Of a stretch of 64,000 nt of DNA, positions 13,816 through 55,632 are shown piece after piece (position 1 is the first letter of the stretch; every line of letters starts with the position of its first letter). The translations under genes were made by a program, and so were the position numbers. This DNA is from Actinomycetales bacterium (lineage in GTDB: Bacteria; Actinomycetota; Actinomycetes; S36-B12), in contig JAGWVT010000003.1 of assembly GCA_018970765.1 (NCBI GenBank), forward strand, positions 1-64,000. The letters are read 5' to 3'. A model generated the notes under the pieces. The model worked only from the letters and a program-made list of their open reading frames with translations, was not told where the DNA came from and did not search any database.

Positions 13816-13832
13816 GAGCCGATCGTGAGGTG

Positions 13833-13910
13833 AGGTCTCTACCCGCTTCCCGCAGACTTCCTGGCGCACTTCCCCGGCGCCAGGCCGCTCAACGAAGCGG
13901 GCGGAGACCT
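13833..13910 (+). ncRNA. Structured 5' leader of rsmH/mraW, candidate actinobacterial mraW RNA motif
   Basis: Three nested helices: AGGTCTC/GAGACCT, CCCGCTTC/GAAGCGGG, CCTGGCGC/GCGCCAGG. Confidence 0.7.
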
Positions 13911-13962
13911 GGCCACACGAAAGCCACGGACAGTCCAGGCACCGCAAGGGAGGCCGCTGCGA

Positions 13963-43830: not shown

Positions 43831-44586
43831 ATGTTCGAGTTACTTGCAGCGATAGACATCATGGACGGTCAGGCGGTGCGCCTTCGGCGTGGCGAGGCCG
43901 ATCATCGCACCGACTACGGCGCCGCGCTGCCGGTCGCCCATCGCTGGATCAACCAAGGCGTCCGATGGCTTCATGTCGTAGACCTTGACGCGGCCCTGGG
44001 GCTGGGCAGTAATGAATCAGTCATTGCCGAGATCGCACATGCGGCACGGGGCAAGGCCCAAGTACAGGTTGCTGGTGGCATCCGTGACGACGAGGCGCTC
44101 AAACGCGCATTCGCCACGGGGTGCGATCGCGCGGTCCTGGGCACAGGTGCAATCACCAACCTCGACTGGGCTGCCTCGGCGATCAAAACCCACGGGGATC
44201 GCATCGTGGTCAGCCTGGATTTGCGTGGCTCGACACTGGCGATCGACGGGTGGACCGTTGACGGGCCGAATGCCTGGGACACCTTGGGTCAACTCGATGT
44301 CCTGGGGTGCCATCGATACGTAGTGACAGACGTGCATAAGGACGGCATGCTGCATGGGCCGAACATCCATCTACTCGAAGAGGTTGGTAGGGCCACGTCA
44401 CGCCCATTGATCGCCAGCGGGGGAATAGCCTCCCTAGAGGATTTGCACCGCCTGGCGGATCTGCCTCATGTGTCGGGTGCAATTCTTGGCAAAGCAATTT
44501 ATGAAGATCGATTCAGTATCGCTGAGGCGCAAGCGGCCATTGAGGCACGCTACGACCCCTATGAGTGGGGACCGCCTCGTCCGTGA
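43831..44586 (+). CDS. hisA: HisA/PriA phosphoribosyl isomerase
   Basis: [44 protein letters not shown]. Confidence 0.92.
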
Positions 44587-45407
44587 GCGGTCCAGGTAAT
44601 TCCTCGGACATTTTTGACACAGGGGTCTCGATTCGGGTCATCGCATGCCTCGATGTTGATGCTGGGCGGGTCGTCAAGGGCGTTCAGTTCACCGGACTTC
44701 GCGATGCAGGCGATCCTGTCGAGTTGGCACAGCGCTATGACCGCGAAGGTGCCGATGAGTTGGTGTTTCTCGATATCACTGCATCCAGCGATGATCGTCA
44801 GACCATGCTTCAGGTCGTCAACCGCACGGCCGAGCAGGTCTTCATTCCCTTGACCGTCGGCGGTGGGGTACGCACCGTGCAGGACTTCGACCGCCTTCTT
44901 CGGGCTGGAGCGGACAAGGTCAGTGTGAGCACGGCTGCCGTGGAGCGGCCTGCGCTTCTGCACGAGGCCGCGGACCAGTTCGGATCCCAATGTGTGGTGT
45001 TGTCGGTGGATGCCCGTCGTTGCCAGGACATGCCTAGCGGATACGAGATCACGACGCATGGAGGTCGGCGCTCTACGGGGCTAGACGCAACGATTTGGGT
45101 AGAACAAGCATGCTCACTTGGCGCTGGAGAAATCCTGCTGAATGCGATGGACGCCGATGGAACCACATCGGGCTACGACCTGACACTGCTGGCAAGGATT
45201 CGCCGTCATGTGCAGGTCCCGATTATTGCAAGTGGGGGTGCCGGCTCCACCGCCGATTTCGTGGCCGCGGCCCAACAGCAGGCCGACGCTGTCTTGGCCG
45301 CGAGTGTGTTTCACTTCGGAGTGCTCACGATCACTCAGGTGAAGGATGAGTTGGCGGCTGCAGGTTTCGCCATTCGCCGACCTCGCCTACAGGAGTCACG
45401 TTCATGA
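44583..45407 (+). CDS. hisF: Imidazole glycerol phosphate synthase, cyclase subunit
   Basis: [49 protein letters not shown] start assumed. Confidence 0.95.
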
Positions 45408-45793
45408 TGCCCGCTGACCACAACCCGATCCCGGCCATGGTCACCGATGATCGACGCATTGCGGCGGAACAGTGGTGCTCACAGGTCAGGTTCAACACAC
45501 GCGGACTAGTCCCGGTGGTAGCCCAGGATGCCGAAACCGGTGATGTGCTCATGGTCGCCTGGACCGACAGAAGTGGCTTGTTGCGCACTCTGCTAACCGG
45601 CGAGGGAACCTACTTCTCGCGTAGTCGGGGTCAGCCGTGGGTGAAAGGTGCAACGTCCGGCCACCGCCAAACGGTGCTCGAGGTGCGCCTGGACTGTGAT
45701 GCGGATTCTGTCCTGTATCGCGTTCGTCAGGAAGGGCCGGCCTGTCATACCGGCGATCGCAGTTGCTTCGATGCTGGCGGTTGGCAGTGCTAG
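45404..45793 (+). CDS. hisI: Phosphoribosyl-AMP cyclohydrolase
   Basis: [57 protein letters not shown]. Confidence 0.95.
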
Positions 45794-45798
45794 GTGAC

Positions 45799-46389
45799 GT
45801 GCAAGTGCCAAGGCCGAGAATTCGACGTGGCACGGTCGTGTTAGCGGCCCTGGTAAGCGCCGCAGGTGCTCTATCGGTTCTCGCACTACCGTGGATCTCG
45901 GCCTTGGCACCGGTGGCGCCTGGGAGTCCCGCTCGGGTCCCCGTGGAACTCACAGGTGCCCAATGCCTACCCGCAGGTCAGCCGCTCGCCCTCGTCATTG
46001 CCGCTGCAGGTGTGGGATTCCTGGCGACTCGGGCGTGGGGAGTCCGGATCGTCGCAGCAATCACCACGGTGTCTGGCATTGCCCTGCTCATCATGGCCGT
46101 GCAGTTTGGCACCGCAGGAACAGACCAGGTTCTGCCGGCGGACTCCGACCTCATAGGACAGACATCCTGGTGGTTCCTCGCCGCGCTTGCGGGGGCAGTC
46201 GCGACCGCCGCTGGCCTGGTCGCGATGCTGGTGGCGCCGCGTTGGCGGCACCCCTCAGCGGCCTATCAGCGCACCGATGAGGTTTCTTCCCCAGAGGCTG
46301 TGAGCCGGGCAGTCGAACAGCCGACGGGTGCGTCCTGGTGGGATGCCTTGGACCGCGGCGAGGACCCCAGTGCGGACGGCCGCTCGTAA
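45799..46389 (+). CDS. Trp biosynthesis-associated membrane protein (TIGR02234-type)
   Basis: Four-TM pattern; SAAGALSVLALPWI; location hisI-HGxxPAAW; start uncertain. Confidence 0.7.
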   Translation: MQVPRPRIRRGTVVLAALVSAAGALSVLALPWISALAPVAPGSPARVPVELTGAQCLPAGQPLALVIAAAGVGFLATRAWGVRIVAAITTVSGIALLIMAVQFGTAGTDQVLPADSDLIGQTSWWFLAALAGAVATAAGLVAMLVAPRWRHPSAAYQRTDEVSSPEAVSRAVEQPTGASWWDALDRGEDPSADGRS

Positions 46390-46451
46390 CCGTGATCCGC
46401 GTCGTGGCCCAGTCGAGTGGGCCGGGACCGCTCGTCTGCTTGGATGAGGAC

Positions 46452-46658
46452 ATGAGCGCTGGCCATGACAACCACGGATCGACACCGGCTGCCTGGACTG
46501 TCGTGACACTGATCACGATTGCCTTCTTCATCGCCACTTTGGCACTAGTCCTGGGGAACTGGGTGTTGTTCTGGATTGGCGTCGCTGTTCTTCCGCTGTC
46601 ACTCGTCGTAGGCAAGATCATGCAGGCGATGGGTCTGGGCGCCAAGCCACGATCTTGA
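46452..46658 (+). CDS. HGxxPAAW-motif small membrane protein
   Basis: MSAGHDNHGSTPAAWTVVTLITIAFFIATLALVLGN. Confidence 0.88.
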   Translation: MSAGHDNHGSTPAAWTVVTLITIAFFIATLALVLGNWVLFWIGVAVLPLSLVVGKIMQAMGLGAKPRS

Positions 46659-47365
46659 CCACGATCCCCGGTACCCCCCGGGATACCGTCCTCATCGTTG
46701 AGGATGAGCAGGCCATTTCTGATCTTCTGGCGCGCTACGTCGCTGATGCGGGTTTTCACCCCGTGGTGTTAGCGCGCGCGGACCAAGCACTTCAATACTT
46801 GGTTGACCATCGAGTGGTTGCGGCTCTGGTCGATATTGGCCTACCTGACCTACCGGGTACTGAGATCTGTCGACTCATGCGTGGTCGTGGTGACCTCACT
46901 CCGGTGCTCTTTTGTACTGCGGCCGACGACGAGGAATCGCGGATCGAAGGGCTGGAAATTGGGGGCGATGACTACATCACCAAGCCATATAGCCCCCGCG
47001 AGGTGATGGCGCGACTTCGATCTGTGCTGCGCCGTACCCAGCCCATTGGCCCCAACGAGAGTGGACCGATCACCGTCCGTGGCGCCGTGCGCATTGACGA
47101 GAATCGTCGAGTTGTCTCGATGAATGACGTCGCAGTGCCAGCTCTTACGGCCACCGAGTTTTCCCTCCTTGCCTACCTCATGCGCCAGGGGGACCGGGTT
47201 GTCCCGCGGGAGGAACTACTTCGAGAAGTCTGGGGATATCGCGAGTTGGTAGCAACCCGCACCGTTGACGTGCACATCGCCCAGATTCGTGCAAAGTTCC
47301 AAGAGGTTGGTCAGGTGGCGCCAATTCGGACGGTGCATGGCGTGGGCTACGCCGTCGAGAGTTAG
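46655..47365 (+). CDS. OmpR-family response regulator
   Basis: VEDEQAISDLLARYV, LVDIGLPDLPG, DDYITKPYSPREVMARL, winged-helix C-terminus. Confidence 0.93.
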   Translation: MTTIPGTPRDTVLIVEDEQAISDLLARYVADAGFHPVVLARADQALQYLVDHRVVAALVDIGLPDLPGTEICRLMRGRGDLTPVLFCTAADDEESRIEGLEIGGDDYITKPYSPREVMARLRSVLRRTQPIGPNESGPITVRGAVRIDENRRVVSMNDVAVPALTATEFSLLAYLMRQGDRVVPREELLREVWGYRELVATRTVDVHIAQIRAKFQEVGQVAPIRTVHGVGYAVES

Positions 47366-47370
47366 GTCCA

Positions 47371-48720
47371 ATGCGCACCTCGCTCACCGCACGCACGGTC
47401 CTGCTGACCACAGGTGTGGCATGCCTGGTTGCGGCTGTTGCGGCGATCGCAGCGTGGCCACTGTTACGTTCTGCGGCGGACTCCCAAGGTCGTTCCGATC
47501 TGGCAAGACTTGCCAACCTCACTGCAGTAGCGCTTGCGCAAACCACTACCTCCGCACAGGTGCCTGAGGAACTGCTTAGCGAACTCCGAGACGGGCGGGT
47601 CAGTGCATTCCTGTTCACCTCCTCGAACGCCACAATTCCCGGACTAAGTGCTGATCAACCGGCGGCGGTCCTTGGTGCCCCTCCAGGGTTCGCCTTGGCA
47701 ACTATGTCGCCGGATGGCAACGCCCTCGTCGAAGCACGCACTCTGACCAGCGGCCTTGGGCTAGTGCTCCTGCAGCCCACCAGTGTTGCCGTTGCCGCTG
47801 CATGGCAGCAAGAGCTCAGGCTCATCGCCGCACTGAGTTTGGGTCTGCTCGCCGCTGGCCTTTTCGGGTTTGTTGCGGCGCGCCGCCTCGCGCGCCCACT
47901 GCAGTCACTTCGCGGTGCAGCGGTGATGCTCGCAGCAGGTGATCGCGATGTTGCCCTTCAACCAAGTGGCCCGACCGAAGTGATCGAAGTCGCCGAGGCA
48001 ATTAACCGCCTCAGCGATGCGCTCGCGGCCTCGGAAAGTCGCCAGCGTTCGTTTTTGCTCTCGATTTCCCATGAATTGCGAACCCCCTTGACTGCGGTCC
48101 TTGGTCACGCCGAAGCCATGCGTGAGGGCATGCTGACCGGAGTCGAGGTGACCTCAGCCGCTGCAGTCATTCAGCGCGAAGCCCTTCGGCTGGGCCGACT
48201 TGTCGATGATCTGTTGGTGTTAGCACGGTTGGAGGCAGTGGATTTTCCATTGCAGCGCACGACTGTCGATCTCGTGCAGTTGGCTCAAGAGGCGGCAGGG
48301 GCGCGCCGAGATGGGGAGATCGCGGTCGAGGTTGCCGCGGAAGGGGCAGCGACTGGAAATGCGACGAGCGTGCTGGTCGATACCGATCCAATGCGAGCTC
48401 GGCAGTTACTGGACAATCTGCTCGACAACGCAGTTCGGGTGAGCCCGGCGGGCAGCAGCGTCATGATCCACGTGGAACGGATGTCTGGCTGGGGATGCCT
48501 CACGGTCAGTGACGAGGGACCGGGGTTGTCTGAGGAAGATATTGCGGTGGCCTTCGAAGTTGGCACACTGCATCATCGACTCGGTGCTGCCCGAGCTGGC
48601 ACGAGCGGTTTAGGGCTTGCGCTGGTCCAACGACTGATCACGCGGCTCGATGGGCAGGTGAAAGTCAGTAGTCGCCCAGGTGCTGGCGTCCAGTTCCAAT
48701 TGCTCTTCCCCCCCGACTAG
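47371..48720 (+). CDS. Sensor histidine kinase
   Basis: Two TMs, HAMP, SFLLSISHELRTPLTAVLGHAEAM, LLDNLLDNAVRVSP. Confidence 0.93.
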   Translation: MRTSLTARTVLLTTGVACLVAAVAAIAAWPLLRSAADSQGRSDLARLANLTAVALAQTTTSAQVPEELLSELRDGRVSAFLFTSSNATIPGLSADQPAAVLGAPPGFALATMSPDGNALVEARTLTSGLGLVLLQPTSVAVAAAWQQELRLIAALSLGLLAAGLFGFVAARRLARPLQSLRGAAVMLAAGDRDVALQPSGPTEVIEVAEAINRLSDALAASESRQRSFLLSISHELRTPLTAVLGHAEAMREGMLTGVEVTSAAAVIQREALRLGRLVDDLLVLARLEAVDFPLQRTTVDLVQLAQEAAGARRDGEIAVEVAAEGAATGNATSVLVDTDPMRARQLLDNLLDNAVRVSPAGSSVMIHVERMSGWGCLTVSDEGPGLSEEDIAVAFEVGTLHHRLGAARAGTSGLGLALVQRLITRLDGQVKVSSRPGAGVQFQLLFPPD

Positions 48721-48729
48721 CCTTCAGAT

Positions 48730-49194
48730 GTGACGACGTCGGTTGAAGCAAGTTCGGCGGTTGCCGACCTGCGAGACGAACGTCCTGTTGAGCGTCGAAT
48801 CCTGGCACCTGTCTGCACAGCCTTCGGCACGCTTGCCGCCTGCGGCTATCTAGCGCTGGTCGATCCGAATGAACCCGGCCACTACCCGCTGTGCCCCCTG
48901 CGCGCCGTCTTAGGCTGGGACTGCCCCGGGTGCGGTGGCCTGCGCGGCATGCACGCCCTGCTCACCGGCGATCCGCTCCGAGCACTGGACCACAATCTGC
49001 TTCTGGTGTTTGTTGTTCCCCTAGCCCTATGGTTGTGGGCACGTTGGTTTCTGCGGTCCTGGCGTGGCGTGTCACCACCAGTCACCGATCGGCAGCAGCG
49101 GCGCTGGACTCGGTTCACCGTCGCCGTCCTGGTCTTGGCCATAGCTTTCGGCGTCCTACGAAACTTCGTGCCCTACCTGGGGTCCACTGCCTGA
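48730..49194 (+). CDS. DUF2752 membrane protein
   Basis: YPLCPLRAVLGWDCPGCGGLRGMHALLTGDPLRALDHN. Confidence 0.88.
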   Translation: MTTSVEASSAVADLRDERPVERRILAPVCTAFGTLAACGYLALVDPNEPGHYPLCPLRAVLGWDCPGCGGLRGMHALLTGDPLRALDHNLLLVFVVPLALWLWARWFLRSWRGVSPPVTDRQQRRWTRFTVAVLVLAIAFGVLRNFVPYLGSTA

Positions 49195-49232
49195 ACAGGC
49201 CGATCCGGCCACTCCTAGCTACTCTTGCCAAC

Positions 49233-50042
49233 GTGCTTCAGGCTGTCCTTGGTGCGGTGCGCCGCGATGTTGACAGCCGCATGCGTGACACTCCGCTGGA
49301 TCTTGTGAAAGAGCGAGCTGAACGAATCCCTGGTCCGCGCAATCCACTTCCTGCCCTGGCCGGCGGGGAAGTATGTGTCATCGCGGAGGTATCACCGGTT
49401 GATCTGACGAAGGCTGGTGCTGAGCGTTCGAATGAACTCGCCCAACTTGCCGGTGAATTCGAGGCGGGCGGCGCGCACTGCGTCAGCGTCTGGACGGACC
49501 AACAGGCCCATGGGGCCAGTATGAGGGACCTTGCTGCCGTGCGCGCTGGCGTGGACATTCCGGTGCTTGCTCGCGACTTCATTCTGTGTAGCTATCAGCT
49601 CTGGGAGGCTCGGGCTGCCGGCGCCGACATGGTGCTGATCATGGCCTCATGTTTGGAACCTCAGGCTCTGGTCAGTCTGGTGGAGCGAACTATGAGCCTG
49701 GGCATGGTGCCGGTGGTTCAGGTCCGTGACGAGCGCGAACTCGCGACAGCCGCAACCTGCGGGGCCACGCTGATTGCAATTCACACCGACCGTTCGCGCG
49801 AATCCGGCGGGGACCACGGCCGTCGGCGGTTCGCGGAGCTGGCTCCGCTGGTACCCAGTGGAAGTCTGCGCATCGCCGACGTCGGTGTACGCGACCCCCA
49901 TGAACTTATTGAGTTCGGTCAGGCCGGTGCAGACGCAGTTGTCGTGGGAACCACCCTGACCTCGACAAAGCAACCGAAGGCGGCTGTGCATGATCTCGTG
50001 ACCGCCGGTTCGCACCCGGCAGTGCGTCATGCGCGCCAGTGA
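49233..50042 (+). CDS. TrpC (indole-3-glycerol-phosphate synthase)-like protein lacking catalytic residues
   Basis: Overall actinobacterial TrpC pattern (SYQLWEARAAGADMVLI...EPQALVSLVERTMSLGMVPVVQV) with catalytic motifs replaced; start within ORF 48891-50042. Confidence 0.75.
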   Translation: MLQAVLGAVRRDVDSRMRDTPLDLVKERAERIPGPRNPLPALAGGEVCVIAEVSPVDLTKAGAERSNELAQLAGEFEAGGAHCVSVWTDQQAHGASMRDLAAVRAGVDIPVLARDFILCSYQLWEARAAGADMVLIMASCLEPQALVSLVERTMSLGMVPVVQVRDERELATAATCGATLIAIHTDRSRESGGDHGRRRFAELAPLVPSGSLRIADVGVRDPHELIEFGQAGADAVVVGTTLTSTKQPKAAVHDLVTAGSHPAVRHARQ

Positions 50043-50051
50043 CCCGGCGTC

Positions 50052-50082
50052 TTGGTCATAATGAATTTTGGTCATAATGAAT
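50052..50082. promoter_or_regulatory. Direct repeat TTGGTCATAATGAAT x2 at 16-bp period, each with palindrome TCATAATGA
   Basis: Read directly. Confidence 0.7.
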
Positions 50083-50164
50083 AATGCTTGGAACACCAGT
50101 AGTGCTCGGAACCTGCGCAGTTCCAGCGCCACCCGTCGATAGTCCTGAGAAAGGATGAGCCAGC

Positions 50165-50962
50165 ATGGCCCAGAGCAGCAAGAGTAGGCGCGAGCGGGCA
50201 GAACAGGCCCGAGCCTCGGTTCAGGTGGGGCAGGCTCGACGTGAGCGCATGGTGCGCATCGTCGGAGCGGTCGTGGTTGTGGGCGTGGTTGCCGGGATAA
50301 TCGGCGTGGCAGTCTGGGCGCGCAGTAGTGCACCGGGCACGCCTGGCCTGGTCACCGCGGAGCCAGATCCCAATGCTGCGGTTCCTGCGGGCGTGCTGCC
50401 TGCCACGGACACGCTGCCGTTCGGGGTCGTCTATGGGACCGCAGCGCAGGGTGCCCCCACGCTTGAACTCTGGGAAGACTTCCAGTGCCCTGCCTGTGGA
50501 GCACTGGAAGCAGTCAATGGGGCTGGGATCGCCAAACTGGCCGAAGAGGGCCAGTACCGACTCGTCTGGCGCCCGACCACCTTCCTTGACAACAAACTCG
50601 GCAATGACGCGTCGCTTCGAGCGGTGGCTGCCTGGGGCTGTGCGATCGATGCGGGTCGCATTCGTGAATACCACGATGTGGTCTACGCCAATCAACCCCA
50701 GGAAGAGGGTAAGGGATACACGAAGGAGCAGTTGATTGCCTTCGGCTCCGATGCAGGTGTACCGGAGGGTCAAATGGAAACCTTCACGCAGTGTGTGGAG
50801 TCCGGCCAGTACCTAACCTGGGCCGCGAACAGCACGCAGGAGTTCTACAACAACGAGGTGAGCGCGACGCCAACCGGGAAGCTGAACGGAGCAGAGGTGC
50901 CCCCGGAGATCCTGGCGGATGAGGCAAAGCTCCGCGATTACGTAGCTAAGAACGCGGGCTAA
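50165..50962 (+). CDS. DsbA-like thioredoxin-fold protein, membrane anchored
   Basis: N-term TM; LELWEDFQCPACGALEAVNG CxxC motif; ATPTGKLNG. Confidence 0.92.
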   Translation: MAQSSKSRRERAEQARASVQVGQARRERMVRIVGAVVVVGVVAGIIGVAVWARSSAPGTPGLVTAEPDPNAAVPAGVLPATDTLPFGVVYGTAAQGAPTLELWEDFQCPACGALEAVNGAGIAKLAEEGQYRLVWRPTTFLDNKLGNDASLRAVAAWGCAIDAGRIREYHDVVYANQPQEEGKGYTKEQLIAFGSDAGVPEGQMETFTQCVESGQYLTWAANSTQEFYNNEVSATPTGKLNGAEVPPEILADEAKLRDYVAKNAG

Positions 50963-50972
50963 TTCGCACGTT

Positions 50973-51006
50973 CATCGGCCGTCGACGAGTGCGTCGGCGG
51001 CCGATG
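50973..51006. terminator. Hairpin after dsbA-like gene
   Basis: CATCGGCCG...CGGCCGATG. Confidence 0.7.
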
Positions 51007-51060
51007 CGCTATTCTGCGCTCGCAGGCCAACGTCGTCCTGTCCCCAAGGAAATTCCCATC

Positions 51061-51087
51061 AACTGAGTTGACCGTGAACTGAGTTGA
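51061..51087. promoter_or_regulatory. Direct repeat AACTGAGTTGA x2 at 16-bp period upstream of gltB
   Basis: tcAACTGAGTTGAccgtgAACTGAGTTGAtt; first copy within palindrome TCAACTGAGTTGA. Confidence 0.7.
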
Positions 51088-51120
51088 TTGGCACGCCATT
51101 GGACGACGGAAGGCAATCCA

Positions 51121-54100
51121 GTGAAAGATCTACCTGTGCGGCAGGGTCTGTATGACCCCTCACGCGAACATGATGCCTGTGGTGTGGCGTTCGTTGCGAC
51201 GTTGACAGGTATCCCCAGTCATCACATCGTTCAGCAGGCGCTTACGGCGCTGCGAAACCTTGAGCACCGAGGGGCGTCCGGTAGCGAGCCGGAAAGCGGC
51301 GATGGCGCAGGCACATTGATCCAGATTCCGGACCGTTTCCTGCGCGACGTAGTTCCGTTCGACCTTCCGCACTCCGGGGGCTACGCCGTCGGTATGGCTT
51401 TCCTGTCCACGAATGCGGCGCAGGCGCAGGCGGCAAAGGATCAGTTAGCTGCAATTGCCAGTGAAGAGGGCCTGCGCGTCCTTGGTTGGCGAACGGTGCC
51501 GACAAACCCGGCTGGTCTTGGTCGTACCGCTCGGCAGGTGATGCCGGCCTTCGAGCAACTGTTCCTCGCTGGAATCAACGACGAGACCGATGTCGCCCTT
51601 GATCGCCTCACGTTCTGTTTGCGCAAGCGTGTCGAGCACGAAGTCGGGCTGTACTTTCCGTCCTTGTCTTGCCGCACCGTGGTCTACAAGGGCATGCTCA
51701 CTACCGCTCAGTTGGAGCCCTTCTATCCAGACCTGTCTGATGAGCGCGTCGAAAGCGCGATTGCACTCGTGCACTCCCGCTTCTCCACGAATACGTTTCC
51801 TTCCTGGCCGCTGGCGCACCCGTACCGCTACATCTCCCACAACGGTGAAATCAACACGGTGCAGGGCAACCGAAATTGGATGCGCGCAAGAGAATCCATG
51901 TTGACCTCCGATCTGATTCCGGGTGATCTGACCAGGCTCTTTCCAATATGTGCCGCCGGCGGAAGCGACTCCGCGTCCTTTGACGAAGTGTTGGAATTGA
52001 TTCACCTGGGCGGGAGATCACTCCCACACGCTGTAAGGATGATGATTCCCGAGCCCTGGGAAAACGATCACCGTATGGACCCGGACCTGCGCGCCTTCTA
52101 TCAATTCCATGCCACGCTCATTGAGCCCTGGGATGGTCCGGCAAACGTCTGCTTCACCGATGGCAAGGTCATTGGTGCGGTATTGGACAGAAATGGTCTG
52201 CGGCCAGGTCGTTATTGGGTGACCAACGATGGCCTTGTCATCCTTGCTTCTGAGACAGGCGTCCTGGACATTCCGGCAGCGCGCATTGTCGCCAAGGGGC
52301 GCCTTCAGCCGGGACGCATGCTCCTCGTGGATACCCAAGCCGGACGCATCATTCCGGATGAAGAGATCAAAGCGCAGTTGGCGTCAGCCGCTCCTTACCG
52401 GCAATGGCTTGCAAATGGCCTGGTTCATCTCGACGCCCTGCCGGAACGTGAACATGTCGTACACACGCATGGTTCGGTGTTACGCCGTCAACAGACATTC
52501 GGATACACCGAAGAGGAAATCCGGGTCATCATCAAGCCCATGGCCAAAGCTGGCACTGAGCCGGTTGGTTCAATGGGTACGGACACTCCACTTGCGGTGC
52601 TCTCCGATAGACCGAGACTGCTTTTCGACTACTTCCAGCAACTCTTTGCTCAGGTCACCAATCCGCCCCTCGATGCGATCCGTGAAGAGATCGTGACTTC
52701 GCTGGGCAGCCACATTGGACCCGAAGGGAATCTGCTGGATGCCGGACCGGCTCATTGCAGGCAGGTCGTTGTCCCCTTCCCGGTCATTGACAACGACGAA
52801 CTGGCCAAGATCCTTCATATTGATGCCGACGGATCGTTGCCATGGTTTTCAAGTGCCCGTATCAAAGGTTTGTATCCCGTGGCCGCTGGCGGTGAAGGAT
52901 TGAAGCGGCGCCTGTCTGAGATCTTCAACGAGGTTGATGCCCTGATTCGCCAGGGAAAGCGATTCATCGTGTTGACCGATCGGGATAGCAGCGCTGATCA
53001 AGCGCCAATTCCCTCACTCCTGCTCTGCGCTGCCGTGCATCAACACCTAGTGCGCACCAAGGCCAGGACCATGGTGAGCGTTCTCATCGAAGCAGGGGAT
53101 GTCCGCGAGGTCCATCACGTGGCACTGCTCATCAGTTACGGCGCGGCAGCCGTAAACCCGTATTTGGCGCTGGAGACTGCGGAGGACCTGAGTCGGCGCG
53201 GTGAACTTGATGAGGTCACACCGGAACGCGCCATGCGTCACGTAGTCAAGGCGCTCGGCAAAGGTGTCCTGAAAGTGATGAGCAAGATGGGCGTGTCCAC
53301 CGTTGCTTCCTATCGTGGTGCGCAGATCTTTGAGGCAATTGGCCTGGGTCCCGAAGTTGTCGATGCCTACTTCACTGGGACAACTTCCAGGCTCGGTGGA
53401 ATCGATCTAGATGTCATAGCCGGCGAGGTCGCCCAACGTCACGCAGTTGCCTATCCGCCGACTGGAATTTCACCGGCGCATCGCCAACTTGTTGTTGGCG
53501 GGGAGTACCAGTGGCGAAGGGAAGGCGAGGCACACCTGTTCGACCCAGAGACGGTTTTTCGCCTGCAACATGCCACACGCGAACGTCGATTCGACATTTT
53601 CCGCGAGTACACCGAGCGCGTCGATGCACAATCCGAACGGCTTATGACGCTACGCGGGCTGCTTCGGCTCCGTGTCGGGATGCGTCCACCGCTTCCCATC
53701 GAGGACGTTGAGCCAGTGAGCTCCATCCTGTCTCGCTTTTCTACCGGAGCGATGTCATACGGATCAATCTCTGCCGAAGCCCACCAAACACTCGCCATCG
53801 CCATGAATCGGATTGGCGGCAAGTCCAACACCGGAGAGGGTGGCGAGGATCCCGAGCGGTATGTACCACTACCTAACGGTGACTCAATGAGGTCGGCAAT
53901 CAAGCAGGTGGCCTCGGGTCGCTTCGGCGTCACGAGTGAGTATTTGGTGAACGCGGACGATCTGCAGATCAAGATGGCACAGGGAGCCAAGCCAGGGGAG
54001 GGCGGTCAACTTCCCGGACACAAGGTCTATCCCTGGATTGCCAAGACTCGGCACTCCACTCCCGGGGTAGGCCTCATCTCACCGCCACCGCATCACGACA

Positions 54101-55624
54101 TCTACTCCATCGAGGATCTCGCCCAACTGATCTTCGACCTCAAGAATGCAAACTCTAAGGCGCGAATCCACGTGAAGTTGGTAAGCGAGGTAGGCGTGGG
54201 CACCGTGGCAGCAGGAGTGGCAAAGGCACACGCCGATGTGGTGCTGATCTCGGGGCACGACGGAGGTACTGGAGCATCACCTCTGACGTCGCTTAAGCAC
54301 GCGGGCGTTCCATGGGAACTGGGGTTGGCTGAGGCTCAACAAACGTTGATGCTGAACGGGCTTCGGGAGCGAATCGTCGTGCAGGTCGATGGTCAACTCA
54401 AGACTGGGAGAGATGTCGTCATCGCGGCATTGCTCGGTGCCGAGGAGTTTGGGTTCGCCACGGCGCCACTTGTCGTCATGGGCTGCATCATGATGCGCGT
54501 CTGCCATCTGGATACGTGCCCTGTCGGTGTCGCAACCCAGAATCCCGAGTTGCGTGCGCGCTTTTCCGGAAAGCCGGAGTTCGTTGAGACATTCTTCGAG
54601 TACATCGCCGAGGAAGTGCGCGAAACGCTGGCCGCACTCGGCCTGCGTTCACTGGACGAGGCCGTCGGGCAGGTTGAACTTCTTGAAGCCTCTCGGGCCA
54701 TCGCGCACTGGAAAGCAGCCGGTCTCGATCTTGAGCCGATCCTGCACCCGCCGTCAGCTGGCACTGCGCGCCGCAGACTGCGCGAACAGGATCATGGCTT
54801 GACTGACGTTCTTGATCAGCAACTCATCGAAATCTGCGAACCGGCAATTGCCCGGGCTGAACCAGTTCGAGCGACGATGCCGATCCGAAACGTGAACCGC
54901 ACCACGGGCACCATGCTCGGGAGTCGAGTGACTGCCAGCCACGGTGGTGCGGGCTTGCCTGCGGACACCATCGACATCACGTTCACGGGCTCAGCGGGCC
55001 AGTCCTTTGGGGCATTCCTGCCTGCTGGTATCACTCTTCGGCTCCATGGGGACGCCAACGATTACGTAGGAAAGGGCCTATCGGGCGGACGCATCATCGT
55101 TCGTCCGCCGCGGGAAGCCACCTTCGACGCCGCGGAGCAGATCGTGGCAGGCAATGTCATCGCCTACGGCGCTACTGCAGGTGAGATGTTCCTTTCGGGC
55201 AGCGTTGGCGAGCGCTTTGCCGTACGAAATTCCGGGTCGAGTCTGGTTGTCGAGGGTGTCGGCGACCACGCCTGCGAGTACATGACCGGGGGTCGGGTAG
55301 TCATCCTGGGCAGAACGGGACGCAACCTCGCTGCCGGAATGTCGGGCGGAGTTGCTCACGTCCTTGACCTCGATCCTGCCTGCGTCAATCGGGAGATGGT
55401 CGATCTGCAGCCGGTGACTGATGTCGATGCCCTGCAACGCCTGGTCCGTGGCCATGCTGAGGAGACGGGGTCGCAGGTTGCGATGACACTGTTAGCGCGC
55501 TGGCCTGAGTCCGTGGTGCGCTTCACCGAGATCATGCCTAGGGACTATGCGCGAGTGCTTGCCCTACAAGCCCAGGCCACCGCTACAGGTGAGGACCCGA
55601 TGTTGCTCGTGATGGGAGGTACCC

Positions 55625-55632
<8 letters not shown>
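51121..55632 (+). CDS. gltB: Glutamate synthase large subunit
   Basis: [15 protein letters not shown] class II GATase Cys, [28 protein letters not shown]. Confidence 0.97.

Follow-up and report, generated by a model that had tools for sequence, protein, structure and literature searches.

The window, that is the whole stretch of 64,000 nucleotides analysed here, carries at its native trpC locus a homologue of the indole-3-glycerol-phosphate synthase (IGPS) TrpC. Replacement of its catalytic residues strongly supports that this protein can no longer perform IGPS catalysis. It is probably an expressed TIM-barrel pseudoenzyme, dead as an IGPS and kept for its scaffold or for a new ligand after the loss of the tryptophan pathway. 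The protein is derived from an active enzyme and is without the catalytic residues of that enzyme, the label of pseudoenzyme being based on residue loss and substitution pattern in one genome. The features of the locus are collected in Table 1.

Table 1. Features at and around the trpC locus of the window.
Feature	Position	Strand	Remarks
HisA/PriA isomerase	43831..44586	+	below dual-function cut-off, without PriA Arg143 equivalent
hisI	45404..45793	+	left edge of missing trpE
Trp_oprn_chp (PF09534) membrane protein	45763..46389	+	directly after hisI; relatives have trpE between
HGxxPAAW family small protein, trp locus	46338..46658	+	
OmpR/PhoB-type response regulator	46655..47365	+	fast-evolving here
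Sensor histidine kinase	47371..48720	+	positional orthologue in relatives; fast-evolving here
DUF2752 membrane protein, next gene upstream of TrpC	48730..49194	+	GTG start
TACTCT, TANNNT-type -10 box, 7 nt before GTG	49220..49225	+	leaderless-promoter geometry
TrpC-derived protein (predicted IGPS fold, catalytic residues replaced), 269 aa	49233..50042	+	GTG start
122-bp gap	50043..50164		site of trpB and trpA in relatives
DsbA-like thioredoxin-fold protein	50165..50962	+	right flank, normal rate
gltB	51088..55632	+	right flank; relatives' preceding lgt missing

A TrpC homologue with a replaced catalytic site

The preliminary description of this DNA had recognised a TrpC backbone in a frame intact over about 270 codons, and both points hold. 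The open frame encodes 269 amino acids, Pfam IGPS (PF00218) matches residues 5-255 at 2.2e-38 and the best Foldseek matches of the predicted structure are to Mycobacterium tuberculosis IGPS, so that homology to IGPS covers the full (beta-alpha)8 domain. The score against NCBIfam NF001369 is 236.9 bits, under the equivalog cut-off of 329 bits, and four canonical relatives score 426-438 bits. The highest identity to any TrpC of the same order is 52%; the proteins of the relatives are about 72% identical among themselves and 63% identical to M. tuberculosis TrpC. By position the gene is orthologous to trpC, with DUF2752 upstream and DsbA and gltB downstream as in the relatives. No close relative was identified in the GTDB contigs, which contained one canonical TrpC at 47-48% identity, nor in the viral contigs. 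A second species carrying the variant was not found among the genomes compared, none of which is of the same genus, and the variant is known from a single genome. The only candidate outside the IGPS family was 3-hexulose-6-phosphate synthase (HxlA), which was rejected: TIGR03128 matches residues 122-255 weakly (26.8 bits, 3.7e-6, below the equivalog cut-off of 200 bits) and Pfam gives nothing of the kind. This match in the C-terminal half is missing from the four canonical TrpCs. Another family member among the genomes (L091, G106:C57) has a trpC that is canonical except for one in-frame TGA at codon 189, possibly a sequencing error.

The alignment comprises the window TrpC and 67 homologues of about 30-52% identity to it. 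Sixteen catalytic and ligand columns read EKSSFRKFEHNRESGG in all 67 homologues, even in those at about 30% identity, and ESDTHARFQRHDDVGG in the window TrpC, in which 12 are changed and four are kept: E52 (equivalent to M. tuberculosis E57, the glutamate of the catalytic triad), F116, G218 and G239. The earlier statement that essentially all catalytic residues are gone is right for the 12 and too broad for these four. The catalytic set E57, K59, K119, E168, N189 and E219 (M. tuberculosis numbering) retains E57 and has S, R, Q, H and D at the remaining positions. The changes K59S, K119R, E168Q and E219D affect four of the five residues proven essential in M. tuberculosis IGPS. Single mutants of that enzyme have no detectable activity (K59A) or lose more than 2700-fold (K119R), more than 9000-fold (E168Q) or about 80-fold (E219D) (PMC10591298), and the asparagine whose position is taken by H in the window TrpC is essential in IGPS (PMC7681013). 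With S, R, Q and D at four essential sites and H at the essential asparagine, IGPS activity is therefore very unlikely, in agreement with the loss of catalysis first proposed.

The motifs diverge as they had been read from the letters alone: EVKRxSPSKG has become EVSPVDLTKAG, RKDF has become ARDF, VEVH has become VQVR, GVNxR has become AIHTD, AESG has become ADVG and VGES has become VGTT. In the comparison with the 67 homologues, the lost lysine, glutamate and asparagine residues were not recovered at shifted positions. The beta1-alpha1 loop, thought at first to be shortened, aligns without gaps and was thus replaced at equal length; an insertion of two residues is located in the beta6-alpha6 loop. 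Forty-five of the 120 columns conserved at 95% or more are lost in the window TrpC, and every other sequence has lost six at most. Polar or charged residues new to the catalytic face are H93, C140, R165, H184 and D186. The divergent relatives of 30-43% identity were considered as further pseudoenzymes and ruled out, since all of them have the canonical residues.

Tryptophan genes of the genome and the locus

The assembly is a draft of 2.96 Mb in 238 contigs, 96% complete and with 5% contamination. A search of these sequences for a canonical TrpC found none, the window gene being the sole IGPS homologue of the assembly. The genes that would give it a pathway context are absent as well: trpA, trpD, trpE (N-terminal domain) and canonical trpB were not found in the 2.96 Mb. 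This loss of the remaining pathway is the decisive context that the first account of TrpC lacked. Among the other near-complete genomes of the order, trpA was identified in 65 of 66, the exception (G013) being a contig end inside trpB. The order in the relatives examined is hisI-trpE-Trp_oprn_chp-HGxxPAAW-RR-HK-DUF2752-trpC-trpB-trpA-DsbA-lgt-gltB (RR, response regulator; HK, histidine kinase), with which the window locus is syntenic except that trpE, trpB, trpA and lgt are cleanly missing. The genes hisI and Trp_oprn_chp overlap in the window and only 122 bp separate TrpC from DsbA. The lgt gene located between DsbA and gltB in the relatives is absent from 50963-51087; the sole lgt of the genome, a diverged copy, is located on a different contig (L094, G000:C231:9124-9849) and scores like the sole lgt of genome G009 and the second lgt copy of genome G002. 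An mraW cis-regulatory RNA motif (Rfam RF01746), ordinary in actinobacteria, was identified at 13817-13930 of the window.

The TrpB-like match of the genome is a full TrpB2 (TIGR01415, 622 bits) on the minus strand at 1130-2635 of L045 (G000:C175), and it might make tryptophan from external indole in a genome without the other pathway genes. Lowered tryptophan content was considered as a sign of auxotrophy and discarded, as the flanking genes show no difference. The HisA/PriA isomerase scores 269 bits against the dual HisA-TrpF model (cut-off 306) and three relatives score 307-378 bits. It has lost conserved PriA residues, with R139D at the equivalent of M. tuberculosis Arg143 and alanine at the equivalent of Ser81, and may have lost its TrpF activity. 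The score below the cut-off and the missing Arg143 fit the loss of the trp genes, like the isomerases that dropped the TrpF duty once the trp genes were lost (PMC5404923).

Protein branch lengths to the window were measured on a tree built from the flanking genes, the ratio being the multiple of the median tip. The TrpC branch is 1.39 (6.7 times the median). The two-component pair adjoining trpC is also accelerated, with branches of 1.66 for the response regulator (8 times) and 1.36 for the histidine kinase (3.4 times), and the phosphoacceptor region of the regulator looks intact despite this acceleration. The other branches are 0.50 for hisF (2.5 times), 0.52 for DUF2752 (1.7 times), 0.29 for gltB (1.5 times) and 0.53 for DsbA (1.1 times). 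As a hypothesis only, the acceleration of the pair could be linked to the change in TrpC.

Predicted fold, expression and substitution pattern

The best of five AlphaFold2 models, made from an alignment of the window TrpC and one homologue, is a complete barrel with pLDDT 85.7 and pTM 0.86; confidence is confined to this model, the remaining four having pLDDT of 71 to 44. Its best Foldseek matches, to M. tuberculosis IGPS, have TM of 0.85-0.93. The structural comparison proposed at the outset thus yields a matching barrel, and the window TrpC is predicted to retain the IGPS fold.

Of 48 relatives, 36 have a TANNNT box 6-7 nt ahead of the start of trpC, the background being 0.4% of start triplets. 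The window retains TACTCT 7 nt before its GTG despite a shift of the start by two codons, and no Shine-Dalgarno (anti-SD) pairing was found upstream of this start. The gene therefore has two features of a leaderless one, a TANNNT -10 box centred some 7-12 bp ahead of the start codon and no Shine-Dalgarno pairing, and a box just before the start is the known leaderless geometry of actinobacteria (PMC3160421, PMC3898074). Given this geometry, transcription and leaderless translation of the window TrpC are likely, and its product is apparently still expressed. A box of this type, TAGCCT, also precedes the GTG of DUF2752 by 6 nt and suggests that the locus has another leaderless promoter.

For the catalytic face, the AlphaFold2 secondary structure was used to select the two final residues of every strand together with the beta-alpha loop. 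The window TrpC has lost the conserved residue at 31 of 46 positions of the face versus 18 of 74 elsewhere (p=3.9e-6), and the residue of the window occurs in any homologue at 29 of 68 face positions versus 165 of 201 other positions (p=1.9e-9). In 3000 simulated runs of neutral decay the losses on the face had a mean of 17 and a maximum of 27, and 31 of 45 were observed in that alignment; nearly all neutral runs gave less conservative changes off the face than those observed. This pattern disfavours a simple, uniform pseudogene decay of the window TrpC.

Two other measures of retention were set aside. The preliminary description took the intact frame as favouring either a retained new role or a decay that is very recent; simulated neutral decay with equal loss leaves no stop with a probability of 0.05-0.18, so the frame alone is weak evidence and was dropped as proof of function. 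In branch models of dN/dS, omega=1 over the whole branch was rejected for every gene, with dS saturated and branch lengths at their bounds; the test is not usable because synonymous sites are saturated, and it is silent on late decay. Between the new role and the decay that had both been considered, the evidence leans to retention of the scaffold because the losses are focused on the face, the changes off the face are conservative, an intact fold is predicted and the promoter box persists. A new role, probably a non-catalytic one, is suggested by the sequence, and the specific role stays conjectural.

The gene could instead be a decaying relic on its way out, in which the fold bias would come from selection against misfolding or from an early release of the active site. 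In favour of a relic are the loss of the trp pathway, a branch 6.7 times the median of the relatives, the occurrence in a single genome and the probability of an intact frame under neutrality (0.05-0.18). A relic is unlikely, however, since the split between face and scaffold rejects uniform decay, the promoter box and its spacing are retained despite the shifted start, and the face has gained many polar or charged residues (H93, C140, H184, D186 and R165) instead of showing a collapsed site.

Proposed role, alternatives and meaning

In the mechanism proposed for the pseudoenzyme, a native actinobacterial trpC would have been stranded once the lineage lost trpE, trpD, trpB and trpA, keeping its own leaderless-type promoter. 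The predicted (beta-alpha)8 barrel would persist with the synthesis of indole-3-glycerol phosphate gone. The catalytic face, made up of the C-terminal ends of the strands and the beta-alpha loops, has been rewritten: the general acid, general base and second acid are replaced, as are further contacts to the substrate, and the helices, strand cores, alpha-beta side and C-terminal tail have been conserved. The product would be a stable barrel without CdRP turnover, and the gene may be kept as that of a pseudoenzyme. In IGPS enzymes phosphate is contacted by the loop 7 and loop 8 glycines, and as they are kept a phosphorylated ligand is plausible: G218 and G239 may still grip phosphate, of a different phosphorylated ligand. 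The new polar face would likewise point to a different ligand and not to an empty pocket. Binding would be its mode of action, with the protein serving as sensor or scaffold and contacting other proteins, perhaps those of the fast-evolving two-component system encoded alongside. Its most likely role is that of a scaffold or a binder of small molecules. It is possible, and is put forward tentatively, that the rewriting of the barrel in place has produced a new functional protein (a ligand sensor or an enzyme of new chemistry) that works with the response regulator, the histidine kinase and DUF2752.

A neofunctionalised enzyme, with new chemistry or a new substrate gained beyond mere loss, is improbable. 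Many of the substitutions on the face are radical and polar, E52 and D115 remain along with the loop 7 and loop 8 glycines, the C-terminal half has the weak TIGR03128 match (3.7e-6) unlike the four canonical TrpCs, and the IGPS barrel is a proven design host (Kemp eliminases and retro-aldolases are among the Foldseek structural neighbours). The HxlA match, however, reaches 26.8 of the required 200 bits and is absent in Pfam, one sequence allows no conserved new catalytic set to be demonstrated, and the adjacent genes include no obvious metabolic partner. A redundant copy, drifting after native trpE, trpB and trpA were lost in favour of a complete foreign trp operon in the unassembled part, is very improbable. 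The assembly is 96% complete and not closed, the acquisition of a whole trp operon gave SubHisA in Corynebacterium (PMC5404923) and the HisA of this genome has lost PriA features, but 2.96 Mb contain no second IGPS, trpA, trpB, trpD or trpE and the entire operon must fall in the missing 4% or so. A divergent but working IGPS can practically be discounted, for the general acid, the base, the second lysine and the asparagine are all replaced and the pathway partners are absent, against which stand the predicted overall fold and the kept equivalent of E57.

Pseudoenzymes derived from metabolic enzymes have lost their catalytic residues, and the window TrpC resembles this class in its intact frame, predicted fold and lost catalytic residues; a literature search aimed at a natural IGPS pseudoenzyme found none. 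M. tuberculosis TrpC (PF00218; 3QJA/3T40) shares with it 42% identity, the predicted fold (TM 0.85-0.93), the locus and the length, whereas the window TrpC has replaced 12 of the 16 invariant catalytic and ligand residues and is without trpE, trpD, trpB and trpA partners. The designed barrels of S. solfataricus IGPS (1A53, RA95 and KE59 series) likewise have the native site of this barrel replaced, but they are engineered and their substitutions are unrelated to those of the window TrpC, which is natural. The subfunctionalisation of PriA (SubHisA2/SubTrpF, PMC5404923) also concerns an actinobacterial his/trp (beta-alpha)8 enzyme changing after partner loss; there a bifunctional enzyme kept one activity, whereas the window TrpC lost its only known activity.

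Annotation by homology could name this gene trpC and assign a step of tryptophan synthesis to a genome that has lost the pathway. If the reading as a retained pseudoenzyme is true, the gene would clearly exemplify an orphaned biosynthetic enzyme with a rewritten active site and a kept scaffold, and would be nature's parallel to the many enzymes designed on the IGPS barrel. The fate of the last gene of a lost pathway, whether decay, pseudoenzyme or new enzyme, is thereby made testable.
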